This document shows positions 4,679 to 55,955 of a stretch of 64,000 nt of DNA, piece after piece. Each line of letters starts with the position of its first letter. The stretch's first letter is position 1. Under the pieces are notes generated by a model. The model was given only the letters and a program-made list of their open reading frames with translations. It made no database searches and was not told the origin of the DNA. Location of the stretch: contig NZ_CP033433.1 of assembly GCF_003713065.1 (NCBI RefSeq), positions 2,329,001 through 2,393,000 on the forward strand. The letters run 5' to 3'. This stretch comes from Cohnella candidum (GTDB lineage Bacteria > Bacillota > Bacilli > Paenibacillales > Paenibacillaceae). A program made the position numbers and the translations under genes.

Positions 4679-4707
4679 AAAAAAGCCCGAACCCGGCAGG
4701 GTTCAGG
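4679..4707 (-). terminator. Rho-independent terminator of the GerPF-like gene
   Basis: On the minus strand a 9-bp stem CCTGAACCC/GGGTTCGGG with loop TGCC is followed by six T. It overlaps the stop codon of the 62-aa gene. Confidence 0.85.
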
Positions 4708-4891
4708 CGCTGGTGGTGGATTGCTTGGGCATCATCGAGTTGGCGTTATTATTCGAAGTACCTCCGGTCATTTCCTGACCTGCTCCCTCGTTGGTTTTCG
4801 ACGTGCTGGAGGTGGAAATGTTGTTCACATTGCCGAAAACCACCGTACCTTCATTCCTTACGATAACGACTCGTCCAATTTTGCTCGACAT
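4703..4891 (-). CDS. GerPA/GerPF-like spore germination protein
   Basis: 62 aa. The segment TVVFGNVNNISTSSTSKT followed by a G-rich stretch matches the GerPA/GerPF pattern (VVNFGD..ISP.S.SK..), small proteins that act in spore-coat permeability to germinants. The Asn/Ser/Thr-rich tail is typical of coat proteins. A weak AAGGA lies 12 nt before the ATG and a strong terminator overlaps the stop, so it is a monocistronic gene. It stands alone rather than in a gerPABCDEF operon. Sporulation control is likely, but no sigma-E or sigma-K promoter was identified. Confidence 0.65.
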   Translation of the reverse strand: MSSKIGRVVIVRNEGTVVFGNVNNISTSSTSKTNEGAGQEMTGGTSNNNANSMMPKQSTTSA

Positions 4892-4981: not shown

Positions 4982-6463
4982 TCATCGGAGCCCTATTGTC
5001 TTTGTCGCGATATGCTTGCAAAACTCGCTGTCATGCTCCACGAAAAGGATGGTCGGAGCGTGCTCAAGAAGCAGTTCTTCGATCTGCATCCGGGAAATGA
5101 TGTCGACGAAATTAAGCGGTTCGTCCCAAACGTGCAAATGAACCCGCTCGCAGAGGCTTTTCGCGATGAGCACTTTCTTCTTCTGGCCGCCGCTGAAAGA
5201 AGCGATGTCCTTCTCGAATTGCAATCGCGAAAAATCGAGCTTCCGTAAAATCGATTTGAACAAGCTCTCATCAATCCCGCTCATTCTCGCGAAATCGGAC
5301 AAATCTCCCTGCAAATGCGAGGTGTCTTGTGAGACGTACGAAATTTTCAGCTGGCTACCGATTCGTAGCACGCCGGAGTAAGGAATATCCTCCCCGCAAA
5401 TCAGTTTGAGCAAGCTGGATTTTCCCGAACCGTTCGGGCCGGTCAGCGCTATGCGGTCCCCTTGTTCGATCGTAAAGCTGACGTCGCGGCAAGCGGTCTT
5501 CCCGCCGTAATGAATCGAAACGCGGTCAAGCTCGACGAGTTGGTGCTTGTGATACGCCAGTTGCGAAATTTTCAGGCTCTCCGAGCTTTCGACGTTTTTA
5601 AGAAGCTGGGATTTTTCTTCGATCGCGGATTGCTGCCTATGCTCAAGCGACTTGGACCTCTTCATCATCTTGGCGGCTTTGTGGCCAATGTAACCTTTAT
5701 CCACCTTAGAGCCGGAGTTGCGGGTGCCATTCTTGGTTTTTTCCACTTCGTGCGACCAGTTACTCGTCCGGTTGGCCGCTTCGGAGAGACGCTTGATGTC
5801 CTTCTTCAGCTTATCGTTCTCGGCGAGTTCGAAATGGTCCTGCCGTTGTTTGTTCTCCCACCAATCGGAAAAATTCCCCTTTTGGACTTCGATATTGGTT
5901 TTGTTGATCGCAAGAACGTGGTCCACGCAGTTGTCGAGGAACGCCCGGTCGTGCGACACCAAAATAAACCCGCTCTTCCCGTTCAGATAATCGCTGACCA
6001 GCTTTCGCGCATGCAGGTCCAGATGATTAGTCGGCTCGTCGATGAGCAGAAAGCTGTTTTCCTTCAAAAACAAGGCGGCCAGCAGTACCTTCGTTTGTTC
6101 CCCATTGGACAGGGTTTCGAACGGCCGGTACAGCACGTCGTCCGACACTTTCAAAAGCGAAAGCTCACGCAATAACTGCCATTGCTCATAGTCCGGACAA
6201 ATTTCCTCGACGATATCAATCGTATTGTACTCTTTGTGTTCAACGTGGAAGGGGAAATAATCGAAACTGACGTTTGCCGATATCGTTCCGCTGTATTCGT
6301 ATTTGCCGAGCAAGAGATGGAGAAACGTGGTTTTGCCTCGGCCGTTTCTTCCCGTAAAGCCTAATTTCCAGTTCGTATCCATTTGAAAACTGACGTTCTC
6401 GAAAATGTTGTCGTAGCTGCCGTCATAGGCAAACGACAGGTTCGATACCTTGATCATGGACAT
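4982..6463 (-). CDS. ABC-F ribosome protection protein, Lsa family
   Basis: 493 aa. Two ABC domains without membrane segments: Walker A GRNGRGKTT, signature LSNGEQTKV and Walker B LLIDEPTNHLD; then GPNGSGKSS, FSGGQKKKV and VWDEPLNFVD. A charged linker joins them. The N-terminus (MIKVSNLSFAY, MDTNWKLGF.GRNGRGKTT) and the altered second Walker B fit the Lsa branch. That branch binds the ribosomal E site and displaces lincosamides, streptogramin A and pleuromutilins. The ATG at 6463 has TAAGGAGG 8 nt upstream; the frame stays open further upstream but runs through the terminator. An attenuation leader precedes it. Base composition looks more A+T-rich than the neighbours, which fits transfer but is not proof. 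Confidence 0.88.
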   Translation of the reverse strand: MSMIKVSNLSFAYDGSYDNIFENVSFQMDTNWKLGFTGRNGRGKTTFLHLLLGKYEYSGTISANVSFDYFPFHVEHKEYNTIDIVEEICPDYEQWQLLRELSLLKVSDDVLYRPFETLSNGEQTKVLLAALFLKENSFLLIDEPTNHLDLHARKLVSDYLNGKSGFILVSHDRAFLDNCVDHVLAINKTNIEVQKGNFSDWWENKQRQDHFELAENDKLKKDIKRLSEAANRTSNWSHEVEKTKNGTRNSGSKVDKGYIGHKAAKMMKRSKSLEHRQQSAIEEKSQLLKNVESSESLKISQLAYHKHQLVELDRVSIHYGGKTACRDVSFTIEQGDRIALTGPNGSGKSSLLKLICGEDIPYSGVLRIGSQLKISYVSQDTSHLQGDLSDFARMSGIDESLFKSILRKLDFSRLQFEKDIASFSGGQKKKVLIAKSLCERVHLHVWDEPLNFVDIISRMQIEELLLEHAPTILFVEHDSEFCKHIATKTIGLR

Positions 6464-6484
6464 GCCGGTAACCTCCTTAGCCGT

Positions 6485-6524
6485 AATAAAAAGAGCTGCA
6501 GGAAAGTTACCTTTCCTACAGCTC
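6485..6524 (-). terminator. Attenuator terminator in the ABC-F leader
   Basis: On the minus strand a 14-bp stem from GAGCTGTAGGAAAG to CTTTCCTGCAGCTC (one G.U pair), loop GTAA, is followed by TTTTTATTA. It lies between promoter and gene, 22 bp before the start codon, so it should stop transcription unless opened. Confidence 0.85.
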
Positions 6525-6592
6525 AAAAAAATACGGCCATTTCAGCCCGGACGAGGGCATGAAAAAGATATATCTTCGAGAGTGAAAAGAAT

Positions 6593-6604
6593 AAGGTAAC
6601 TTTC
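6593..6604 (-). promoter_or_regulatory. Antiterminator arm
   Basis: GAAAGTTACCTT on the minus strand is a perfect 12-nt complement of AAGGTAACTTTC inside the attenuator (6502-6513). Pairing would invade the terminator loop and right arm. Its 5' part overlaps the 3' arm of an upstream stem (6601-6609 pairing with 6651-6659), giving mutually exclusive folds. Confidence 0.75.
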
Positions 6605-6659
6605 TTGCCGATCAAGAATAAAACAATCCCTGCTTTATTCTTTAGACGCGGGCAAGAAA
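6601..6659 (-). promoter_or_regulatory. Anti-antiterminator double stem
   Basis: Nested perfect inverted repeats on the minus strand: outer TTTCTTGCC (6651-6659) with GGCAAGAAA (6601-6609), inner AAGAATAAA (6634-6642) with TTTATTCTT (6614-6622). The outer 5' arm is inside the uORF, so a stalled ribosome would keep it open and free the antiterminator. Confidence 0.7.
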
Positions 6660-6665
6660 TATCAC
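6642..6665 (-). CDS. Leader peptide uORF of the ABC-F gene
   Basis: GTG start with AGAGG 5 nt upstream, seven codons (M-I-F-L-A-R-V if GTG is read as Met) and TAA. It overlaps the 5' arm of the leader stem. Such short ORFs before erm and ABC-F genes sense drug-stalled ribosomes. Two other possible starts overlap it: ATG at 6679 (M-K-R-I-M) and an ATG directly followed by TGA at 6667. Which one is translated is not known. Confidence 0.5.
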   Translation of the reverse strand: MIFLARV

Positions 6666-6702
6666 ATTATCCTCTTCATCTCCGTTCGTTAAAATTAGGG
6701 AC

Positions 6703-6732
6703 AGTTTAACATAGCCTTTTCCCTTTTTGCAA
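6703..6732 (-). promoter_or_regulatory. Putative promoter of the ABC-F gene
   Basis: TTGCAA (-35), 18 nt, then TAAACT (-10) preceded by an extended TGT. This puts the transcript start near 6696, about 30 nt before the uORF. Both boxes are imperfect. Confidence 0.45.
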
Positions 6733-6745
6733 CGTCGGATCCTGC

Positions 6746-7792
6746 TTACTTCTCTTCGGACACGAACCGGCTCCAAACCTTTCTAAACTCCTCAGGCTTC
6801 TCGACATGCAGGGAATGCCCCGCATCCTCGATGACGACTTCTTCATAGCTGCCGCCGCCCGCCTGATATCGGTCCAAAACGAGTCTCATTTGCGAAACCA
6901 TCGGCTGCGGCGGATACACGTCCGCACCCGGCCAACCCGGTACATAGCCTAACTGGCCCAAGTACCCGAAATCCAGGAAGGACGTATCGGAAACGATGGC
7001 GTCATGGGATCCCCGGATCCAAAGAACAGGCGGTTTCTCCTCGATGGAAGAGAATGAAGAGAGATTGACGTATTTGGGAGAGATCGCATTGTTGATGCCG
7101 TCCGATCCGGGCGCAACGCCCGGCCAATTCGCCGAGGCTTCGAACGCTCCCGGATACAGTCCGGGTCCGACGCGGGTCGTCAGCATCGACGTGACGTATT
7201 CTTCTTCTTTCTCTGCCCGGAACGGCGGTTTCACATAAAACTGGTTCAGGACGTTGCGCGGACTGTTCGGATCTTCATCCGTCCGATCTCCGTTCCTGAG
7301 CCGTTCCGCGAAAACCGGATTCGCCGTTCCCCCTCCGGAGCCTGCGAAGTCGGCATGACAAGGGGTTCCTTCCACATCCTTCGTTCCGCCGAATCCGAAC
7401 GGCGACATCGGATTCAGCAACGTGAGCGAAGCCGCCGTTCCCGGCCGATCGATGAGTAGCTGCATCAAAACGCTTGCTCCCATGGACCAACCGACCAGAT
7501 GGATCGCTCTGTCGATCCGCAAAGTCTGAAGGAAAGAGGCCAAATCCTCCGACCAATCACGCAGTCCGCGAGTCGCATCGATCGGTTCGGCCTGCGTCTC
7601 CCCATAACCGCGCAAGTCGGGAGCCAGTACCCAGTAGCGATCGGACAGGAATTCCATCGTGTCTGGCCAGAACAGACTGGAAGAGACGTTGCCGTGCAGG
7701 AGCAGGACCGGTTCAAACTCCGGGTTTCCGGCCTCCAGATAAGAAATCCGCAGCCTGTCCGTTTGTACCTCTTTACGAGAAATGGTGTTCAT
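6746..7792 (-). CDS. Alpha/beta-hydrolase family esterase
   Basis: 348 aa. Alpha/beta-hydrolase fold with oxyanion motif LLHGN (residues 31-35), nucleophile elbow GWSMGA (Ser103), an acid segment IRGSHDAIVSD and catalytic His in EDAGHSLHVEKP. No signal peptide. It has GGAGG 9 nt before the ATG and starts 24 bp after the serine hydrolase, making it the last gene of the ketone-body operon. The substrate is not evident. The operon suggests an ester or oligomer of 3-hydroxybutyrate (inference), but haloalkane or other carboxylester hydrolysis is equally allowed by the motifs. No terminator is visible before the ABC-F promoter. Confidence 0.85.
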   Translation of the reverse strand: MNTISRKEVQTDRLRISYLEAGNPEFEPVLLLHGNVSSSLFWPDTMEFLSDRYWVLAPDLRGYGETQAEPIDATRGLRDWSEDLASFLQTLRIDRAIHLVGWSMGASVLMQLLIDRPGTAASLTLLNPMSPFGFGGTKDVEGTPCHADFAGSGGGTANPVFAERLRNGDRTDEDPNSPRNVLNQFYVKPPFRAEKEEEYVTSMLTTRVGPGLYPGAFEASANWPGVAPGSDGINNAISPKYVNLSSFSSIEEKPPVLWIRGSHDAIVSDTSFLDFGYLGQLGYVPGWPGADVYPPQPMVSQMRLVLDRYQAGGGSYEEVVIEDAGHSLHVEKPEEFRKVWSRFVSEEK

Positions 7793-47635: not shown

Positions 47636-47722
47636 TGGTGCGGTCGAGAGGACTCGAACCTCCACGGCTGTTACACCACTAGAACCTGAATCTAGCGCGT
47701 CTGCCAATTCCGCCACGACCGC
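47636..47722 (-). tRNA. tRNA-Leu (anticodon CAG), copy 1
   Basis: 87 nt including encoded CCA. Acceptor arm GCGGTCG/CGACCGC with discriminator A, anticodon loop ATTCAGGTT inside stem CTAGA/TCTAG, a long variable arm as in class II tRNAs, and T arm GGTTCGAGTCC. Read as protein, the other frame gives the false peptide MAELADALDSGSSG. Confidence 0.97.
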
Positions 47723-55868: not shown

Positions 55869-55955
55869 TGGTGCGGTCGAGAGGACTCGAACCTCCACGG
55901 CTGTTACACCACTAGAACCTGAATCTAGCGCGTCTGCCAATTCCGCCACGACCGC
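55869..55955 (-). tRNA. tRNA-Leu (anticodon CAG), copy 2
   Basis: 87 nt, identical to the copy at 47.6 kb including encoded CCA, but with different flanks and its own terminator. Two single-gene loci for the same tRNA 8 kb apart point to duplication followed by separate regulation. Confidence 0.97.

Follow-up and report, generated by a model that had tools for sequence, protein, structure and literature searches.

The leader of ~230 nt that precedes an Lsa-type ABC-F gene in the window, meaning the whole 64,000-nt stretch of Cohnella candidum DNA analysed here, is probably a ribosome-mediated transcription attenuator of the vmlR type, one that would sense ribosomes arrested at a start codon without recourse to a peptide. 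Its architecture is the one already known from ABC-F leaders. What is new is the unusual sensor, an AUG followed directly by a stop codon (a start-stop ORF), and the wider set of genes found behind it. A broader proposal is advanced with less than even confidence: that the start-stop ORF senses initiation-arresting antibiotics generically and without a peptide, and that a single leader module defines a scattered regulon in Paenibacillaceae and neighbouring groups, comprising lsa for ABC-F protection, cfr for rRNA methylation, and in some operons a paralogue of ribosomal protein L4 whose altered loop faces the drug region.

The leader lies on the minus strand between an alpha/beta hydrolase gene and the ABC-F gene, and its parts are listed below with the basis on which each was recognised.

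7792-6746, minus strand: alpha/beta hydrolase gene, upstream of the leader on the same strand
6727-6732, minus strand: -35-like box TTGCAA (sequence)
6703-6708, minus strand: -10-like box TAAACT, with TG at 6711-6710 and a spacer of 18 nt (sequence)
6680-6683, minus strand: Shine-Dalgarno GGAG of the start-stop ORF, 12 nt before the AUG (conserved spacing)
6662-6667, minus strand: start-stop ORF AUG UGA, the proposed sensor, AUG at 6667-6665 and UGA at 6664-6662 (conservation)
6642-6665, minus strand: GTG ORF MIFLARV of the original prediction (letters; not conserved)
6651-6682, minus strand: 5' arm of P1, the anti-antiterminator (fold and pairing counts)
6614-6642, minus strand: inner hairpin P2 (fold)
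6580-6609, minus strand: 3' arm of P1, holding the antiterminator strand 6608-6593 and CUC 6582-6580 (fold and pairing counts)
6498-6513, minus strand: antiterminator target strand within the terminator hairpin (complementarity 15/16 to 6608-6593)
6493-6524, minus strand: intrinsic terminator stem-loop (terminator scan and pairing counts)
6484-6492, minus strand: U-rich tail of the terminator (terminator scan)
6472-6478, minus strand: Shine-Dalgarno AAGGAGG of lsa (sequence)
4982-6463, minus strand: predicted Lsa-family ABC-F ribosomal protection gene, 493 codons plus stop (NF000167)

The Lsa-type assignment of the gene behind the leader was borne out, as its product scores 762.4 bits with the NCBIfam Lsa-family model NF000167 (cut-off 750), and resistance is predicted on this score. 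By sequence the closest solved structure is that of Lsa(A) (7nhk, E 1e-130). The source genome is a single contig of 5.29 Mb. Of 595 relatives from named genomes, the 80 best share 79-90% protein identity and belong mostly to Paenibacillus, Cohnella, and Brevibacillus. On the 3' side of lsa, a small ORF (4703-4891, minus strand) resembles the spore germination genes gerPA/gerPF with a score of 25.3 against a Pfam cut-off of 27.3, and a terminator-like hairpin (4708-4685) is found at this ORF. Elsewhere on the minus strand of the window, two tRNA matches of equal score (47639-47722 and 55872-55955) lie ~8 kb apart.

Conservation was followed in an alignment of 74 leaders (A1), made up of the window and 73 of these 80 loci. 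Seven loci were left out, one with the 3' part of the leader only (L043) and six with no leader by eye (L038, L046, L068, L069, L070, and L077).

The whole leader folds at -98.7 kcal/mol (z -9.0), with 0/200 shuffles as low. Its terminator stem consists of 14 pairs (6524-6493) followed by TTTTTATT, and the fold also contains the expected outer stem, P1, in which the 5' arm UUUCUUGCC (6659-6651) is paired with GGCAAGAAA (6609-6601). Within the 3' arm of P1 lies the antiterminator strand GAAAGUUACCUU (6604-6593), an exact 12-nt complement of 6513-6502 in the terminator. All three elements had been recognised in the original prediction, and the antiterminator pairing in fact continues over a 16-nt stretch with one mismatch, 15 positions of 6608-6593 being complementary to 6498-6513. 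Since this strand is part of P1 and also complementary to the terminator, the antiterminator is predicted to exclude both. P1 and the terminator coexist, however, and are found together in the unmasked minimum-energy fold of 74/74 leaders, so the earlier view that the three folds exclude one another holds for the antiterminator against each of the other two but not for those two against each other.

The terminator is the helix with the clearest record of compensatory change. Over the 74 leaders 98.8% of its cells are paired, compared with 43–56% for slid helices, and four of its pairs show changes on both sides (39 such cells; 0/500 shuffles as high), which together with the sequence points to an intrinsic terminator before the gene. 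The 13-pair antiterminator helix is paired in 99.5% of cells vs. 39–50% when slid by 1–3 columns, with a single double change, in L084, where inspection of A1 finds A-U in place of G-C, while the P1 core helix is paired in 98.0% of cells with no double change. The proposed check by covariation is therefore answered for the terminator but weakly for the other two helices, where the letters barely vary and the antiterminator strand has two partners. RNAalifold paired only the P1 core in A2, a set of 60 of the 74 leaders; in A1 it was again confined to the core within P1, and the terminator and a middle hairpin were also paired.

A large structured leader ending in a terminator would also suit a small-molecule riboswitch, but this is exceedingly improbable. 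No Rfam model matches the leader at gathering score, the seven matches at E <= 5 being unrelated and far below it. The leader carries a conserved Shine-Dalgarno-like GGAG and AUG, and the genes behind it are predicted to be ribosome-protecting resistance genes.

Another reading takes the hairpin as a plain intrinsic terminator of the upstream gene, or the region as a structured 5' UTR without drug sensing. The hairpin is strong, the co-directional hydrolase gene stops at 6746, and a strict consensus scan of the leader for promoters reports none. The promoter-like boxes of the original prediction are nonetheless present as letters, and loose patterns (a -10-like box with a TTG-like -35; TGNTA ahead of the -10) are found in 74/74 leaders and a stricter joint pattern in 23/74, both counted without a shuffle control. 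The boxes are hence plausible as a promoter but not strong. Given promoter-like letters between the hydrolase gene and the hairpin, the near-complete pairing of the antiterminator strand, and the recurrence of the leader before cfr genes at other loci, the plain terminator is very unlikely.

The reading frame differs from the one first proposed. The original prediction placed a 7-codon uORF at 6642-6665, which exists as letters but is not conserved: GTG occurs at this place in 12/74 leaders, where the frame then runs for 5–52 codons, and most of the others read AUGUAA or AUGUAG. The conserved start codon begins 2 nt upstream of the GTG place and is AUG in 73 leaders and GUG in one. It is set 8–14 nt past GGAG in 74/74 leaders, and exactly 12 nt in 49, although GGAG is also base-paired with CUC in P1 and so is partly under structural constraint. 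In 65/74 leaders, including the window with AUG UGA, a stop codon follows at once (TAA 38, TAG 16, TGA 11; one with a GTG start). The ORFs of the remaining nine have 2–8 codons and mostly unlike peptides, two being the same. The conserved stalling peptide of erm/msrD-type leader-peptide attenuators is thus absent, as no peptide is shared and 65/74 ORFs hold a start codon only. A putatively translated short uORF with a Shine-Dalgarno sequence is present by sequence in the anti-antiterminator, here as the shortest ORF possible. A further frame upstream of the AUG, reading NTG-K-R-I-M-stop in frame, was dropped by eye because it directly adjoins GGAG and is interrupted in several relatives.

A larger set that includes loci fetched later comprises 222 leaders, of which 190 are distinct in their first 105 nt. 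The start was called at the first AUG lying no earlier than 12 nt into the leader, with GUG/UUG as a fallback, and between GGAG and the arm it is AUG in 186 distinct leaders and GUG in four. A start-stop ORF is found in 154/190 distinct leaders, whereas mononucleotide shuffles of the 90 nt that follow, which ignore base pairing, give an expectation of 14.3; among the 36 longer ORFs, 35 end within 8 codons, with 16.7 expected from these shuffles. Overall the ORF closes within 8 codons in 189/190. On a tree of 78 Lsa proteins (74 leader-bearing and four plasmid rows) at least 7 changes between start-stop and longer ORFs, in either direction, are required, against a shuffled mean of 11.4 (bootstrap 7–8), and the starred branches force three of them.

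The stop codon shares its letters with P1, where they pair with UUAC. As UAA, UAG, and UGA all keep this pairing if G-U counts, conservation of the stop is not independent evidence. In the predicted folds of 59/74 leaders all three stop letters are paired, with a stop in 59/59, and where at least one is unpaired the start-stop ORF is found in 6/15 (both counted by eye). The start codon is on firmer ground, since the minimum-energy folds of 49/74 leaders, window included, leave its U unpaired, and yet AUG is kept. It may be that the AUG-stop is a by-product, in which the 5' arm mimics the terminator strand GUAACUUUCUUGC, with the UAA arising from pairing, so that the AUG works while the stop is not selected. 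This is a serious possibility, though one given rather less than an even chance. Beyond the pairing of all three stop codons with UUAC, it is favoured by UGG, which pairs without being a stop and occurs in L074, L098, and L105. Against it, the stop is kept despite incomplete pairing in 6/74 leaders (L027-L030, L034, and L086), and nearly all frames that have lost the stop after the AUG still end within 8 codons. A hand estimate of the independence of the UAA/UAG/UGA/UGG letters was not significant and is given no weight, and the present data do not tell selection for a stop codon apart from selection for pairing at those positions. The by-product reading is compatible with an attenuator and is a rival solely to the idea that the stop itself matters.

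The effect of a ribosome at the start codon was modelled by masking -18 to +15 around it, after the 30S toeprint reported 16 nt downstream of the A of the AUG on the vmlR uORF in the sections of PMC9226507 consulted. In these masked folds, which are equilibrium folds, the predicted structure switches from terminator to antiterminator in 67/74 leaders. When the mask was slid, the number of antiterminator folds rose from 1 at -24 to 24 at -6, 56 at -3, and 67 at the AUG, then stood at 71 at +3, 70 at +9, 63 at +12, 40 at +15, and 0 at +40. The AUG is thus approximately the first position at which most leaders switch. The window is among the seven A1 leaders that do not flip with the exact mask: with an edge at +15 its terminator stays (-58.2 kcal/mol), while an edge 3 nt wider, at +18, gives the antiterminator (-57.4 kcal/mol), which persists to +33 but not beyond. 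The originally suggested mask of 6645-6665 agrees with this outcome, as 6645 corresponds to +23 and so lies inside the antiterminator-giving edges, the masks used here reaching further upstream than 6665. A G of the arm stands at +15 in 50/74 leaders and in all 30 distinct cfr leaders.

The favoured mechanism, ribosome arrest at the start codon, would proceed as follows. In the absence of drug, a ribosome would load at GGAG, start at the AUG, meet the stop, and depart. P1 would then close over the start-stop ORF and sequester the antiterminator strand, the terminator would form, and transcription would end near 6485. If a lincosamide, pleuromutilin, or streptogramin A were present, this peptidyl-transferase drug would instead hold the ribosome at the AUG, with a footprint to about +15, the end of the UUUCUUG arm, leaving P1 unable to close. 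The freed strand GCAAGAAAGUUACCUU would pair with the terminator, allowing RNA polymerase to read into lsa. With the stop codon in place, ribosomes free of drug would be prevented from running on and melting P1, so the switch would need no peptide sequence, and for this reason a start-stop ORF fits a sensor of initiation arrest. What the sequences show is the anatomy, its conservation, the alternative pairings, and the response of predicted folds to a mask; translation of the ORF, arrest at its AUG, the drug groups named, and induction of the gene are inferences.

In the original prediction, stalling on M-I-F-L-A-R-V was to free the antiterminator. The attenuator logic of that proposal is retained on the evidence of conservation and masked folding, but its sensor is replaced by the conserved AUG-stop; with a start-stop ORF as the conserved element, stalling on a peptide motif is not needed. 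Peptide-dependent stalling of the erm/msrD kind on the GTG uORF, perhaps reached by termination-reinitiation at AUGUGA, is unlikely. The frame is open in the window, where masks reaching +18 to +33 give the antiterminator, and E. coli AUGUGA sites are described in the available portions of PMC9841429 as permitting termination-reinitiation at GUG, with ambiguity of the start site. The scarcity of the GTG, the variable length of its frame, and the AUGUAA or AUGUAG at its place in most relatives argue against such stalling. At the AUGUGA of the window some ribosomes could reinitiate at the GUG, as a side path available to few of its relatives.

The distribution of the leader was surveyed with R1, a covariance model of the P1 domain. 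As the lower P1 stem slides and RNAalifold paired only the core within P1, R1 has just 7 pairs and consists mostly of sequence; P1 being nearly palindromic, opposite-strand matches are also obtained at the same positions, which leaves the genome tallies unaffected. R1 matches none of the seven loci left out of A1. At E <= 0.001 with strict filters it matches 144/245 genomes of the same family (13/19 genera), 159/296 genomes in the order sample, and 49/398 in the class sample, these samples overlapping and including the window's own genome. The first recognised gene is lsa in 111, cfr in 31, and another gene in six of 148 R1 loci, which are best matches plus chosen second copies rather than a random draw, so that the shares of lsa and cfr are not frequencies. 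One locus (L229), in which the lsa match spans 25 aa only, was re-filed as cfr by hand. Two cfr proteins score 624.8 and 618.3 bits with the Cfr family model TIGR04432 (cut-off 550), and the remaining cfr genes were recognised by similarity to one of these two.

The description of the leader as specific in the original prediction goes too far, since cfr genes are also preceded by leaders of similar form. Every one of the 30 distinct cfr leaders is start-stop. P1 and the terminator occur together in 25/25 of those scored by fold, and the mask flips 19/25 and leaves 6/25 unflipped; the other five of the 30 were unscored because the search pattern did not find their antiterminator strand. Among 38 genomes with at least two leaders examined, 29 have one copy before lsa and another before cfr. 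Both genes follow in some loci, lsa then cfr in six and cfr then lsa in three. A 30-nt DNA search in plasmids returned 17 records (Escherichia, Clostridioides), none covering 80% of the query. In the partly accessible literature on cfr attenuation and Paenibacillus lsa, a thin basis, no description of a shared lsa/cfr leader was found.

Several loci show variations downstream of the leader. In L105 a reverse transcriptase ORF, group II intron-like, follows the terminator where the resistance gene would be expected, and in L112, L119, and L138 the lsa behind the leader is split over two or more frames. Between terminator and main gene, loci such as L118, L213, and the lsa(E) locus L090 carry another short ORF-like stretch, which might be a further layer of control.

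An L4-like motif is found at most 2.7 kb from the leader start in four cfr loci (L130, L132, L218, and L221) and in two without cfr (L213 and L235). The paralogue loci are labelled L249-L254. The one paralogue scored reaches 225 bits with the L4 model (cut-off 130). The six genomes also keep a normal L4, at 47–55% identity, and the genome of the window has a normal L4 only. In the paralogues the L4 loop has the sequence RKPYKQNKID[KR]SRAGSIR, and the normal proteins have RKPW[KR]QKGTGRARQGSIR, such that QKGTGRARQG is replaced by QNKID[KR]SRAG. This loop is presumably a hot spot of changes giving macrolide and oxazolidinone resistance. Upstream of the paralogue in L130 (1832-2096 from the leader start), L132, L213, and L235 there is an ORF of ~87 aa, the L130 copy of which matches the CD3324 family. 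In L235 the leader is followed by an apparent short cfr remnant, seen from cysteine-motif letters, and then by the L4 paralogue.

If the start-stop reading is true, this would be the smallest possible drug-sensing reading frame. It would separate the initiation-arrested ribosome from any effect of a nascent peptide and offer a clean test of which drugs arrest ribosomes at an AUG when the A site holds a stop codon. One leader type ties two unrelated resistance families, Lsa and Cfr, together in environmental bacteria, with the alternative L4 as a possible partner, and a homologous leader is found on the mobile lsa(E) gene.

The closest known system is the vmlR leader of Bacillus subtilis, which, compared by description in the consulted sections of PMC9226507, likewise combines an ABC-F gene, an intrinsic terminator, an anti-antiterminator hairpin with a tiny uORF, and an antiterminator. 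The inducers of vmlR, lincomycin and retapamulin, are each expected to stall initiation and so are drugs of the initiation-arresting kind proposed for the leader of the window (PMC9226507). It differs in its uORF, M-I-N with three codons as opposed to a start-stop, and in having additional pausing and translational layers (PMC9226507). The cplR, vmlR2, and lsaA leaders also have very short uORFs before ABC-F genes with the same drug spectrum, but those given in the portions of PMC10201436 at hand (MIN, MR[I/M], MK[L/Q], and MAGN) are longer than a start-stop. That survey used uORF4u (PMC10201436), whose default minimum ORF is nine nucleotides according to the text of PMC10219788 available, so a 6-nt start-stop ORF is skipped by default and such ORFs would be overlooked. 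In Streptomyces, the are5sc and tiaA leaders also couple attenuation to start-codon stalling on a uORF, caused by lincosamide, streptogramin A, and pleuromutilin drugs, much as read here; they are actinomycete leaders with the ORFs MLV and MVGDDDISG (PMC12421871, seen in excerpt).

No bacterial AUG-stop acting as a drug sensor was found in the literature searched, which was available in part; bacterial start-stop sites otherwise appear there as the AUGUGA sites of E. coli (PMC9841429) and as artificial mutations (PMC4965119). In eukaryotes, regulatory start-stop uORFs such as that of NIP5;1 likewise consist of an AUG and a stop, but, as far as the accessible parts of PMC5972666 describe, they control translation of the main ORF through reinitiation, with neither transcription attenuation nor a drug involved. 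Two other plasmid lsa genes have different upstream regions, with ORFs read as MIY or MIN. The plasmid lsa(E) leader of Enterococcus (R1 51.7 bits), in contrast, shares the GGAG, the AUG, the UUCUUGC arm, the antiterminator strand, and the terminator, and differs in a 6-codon uORF, MYNFSC, and in >100 nt more between the terminator and the gene.
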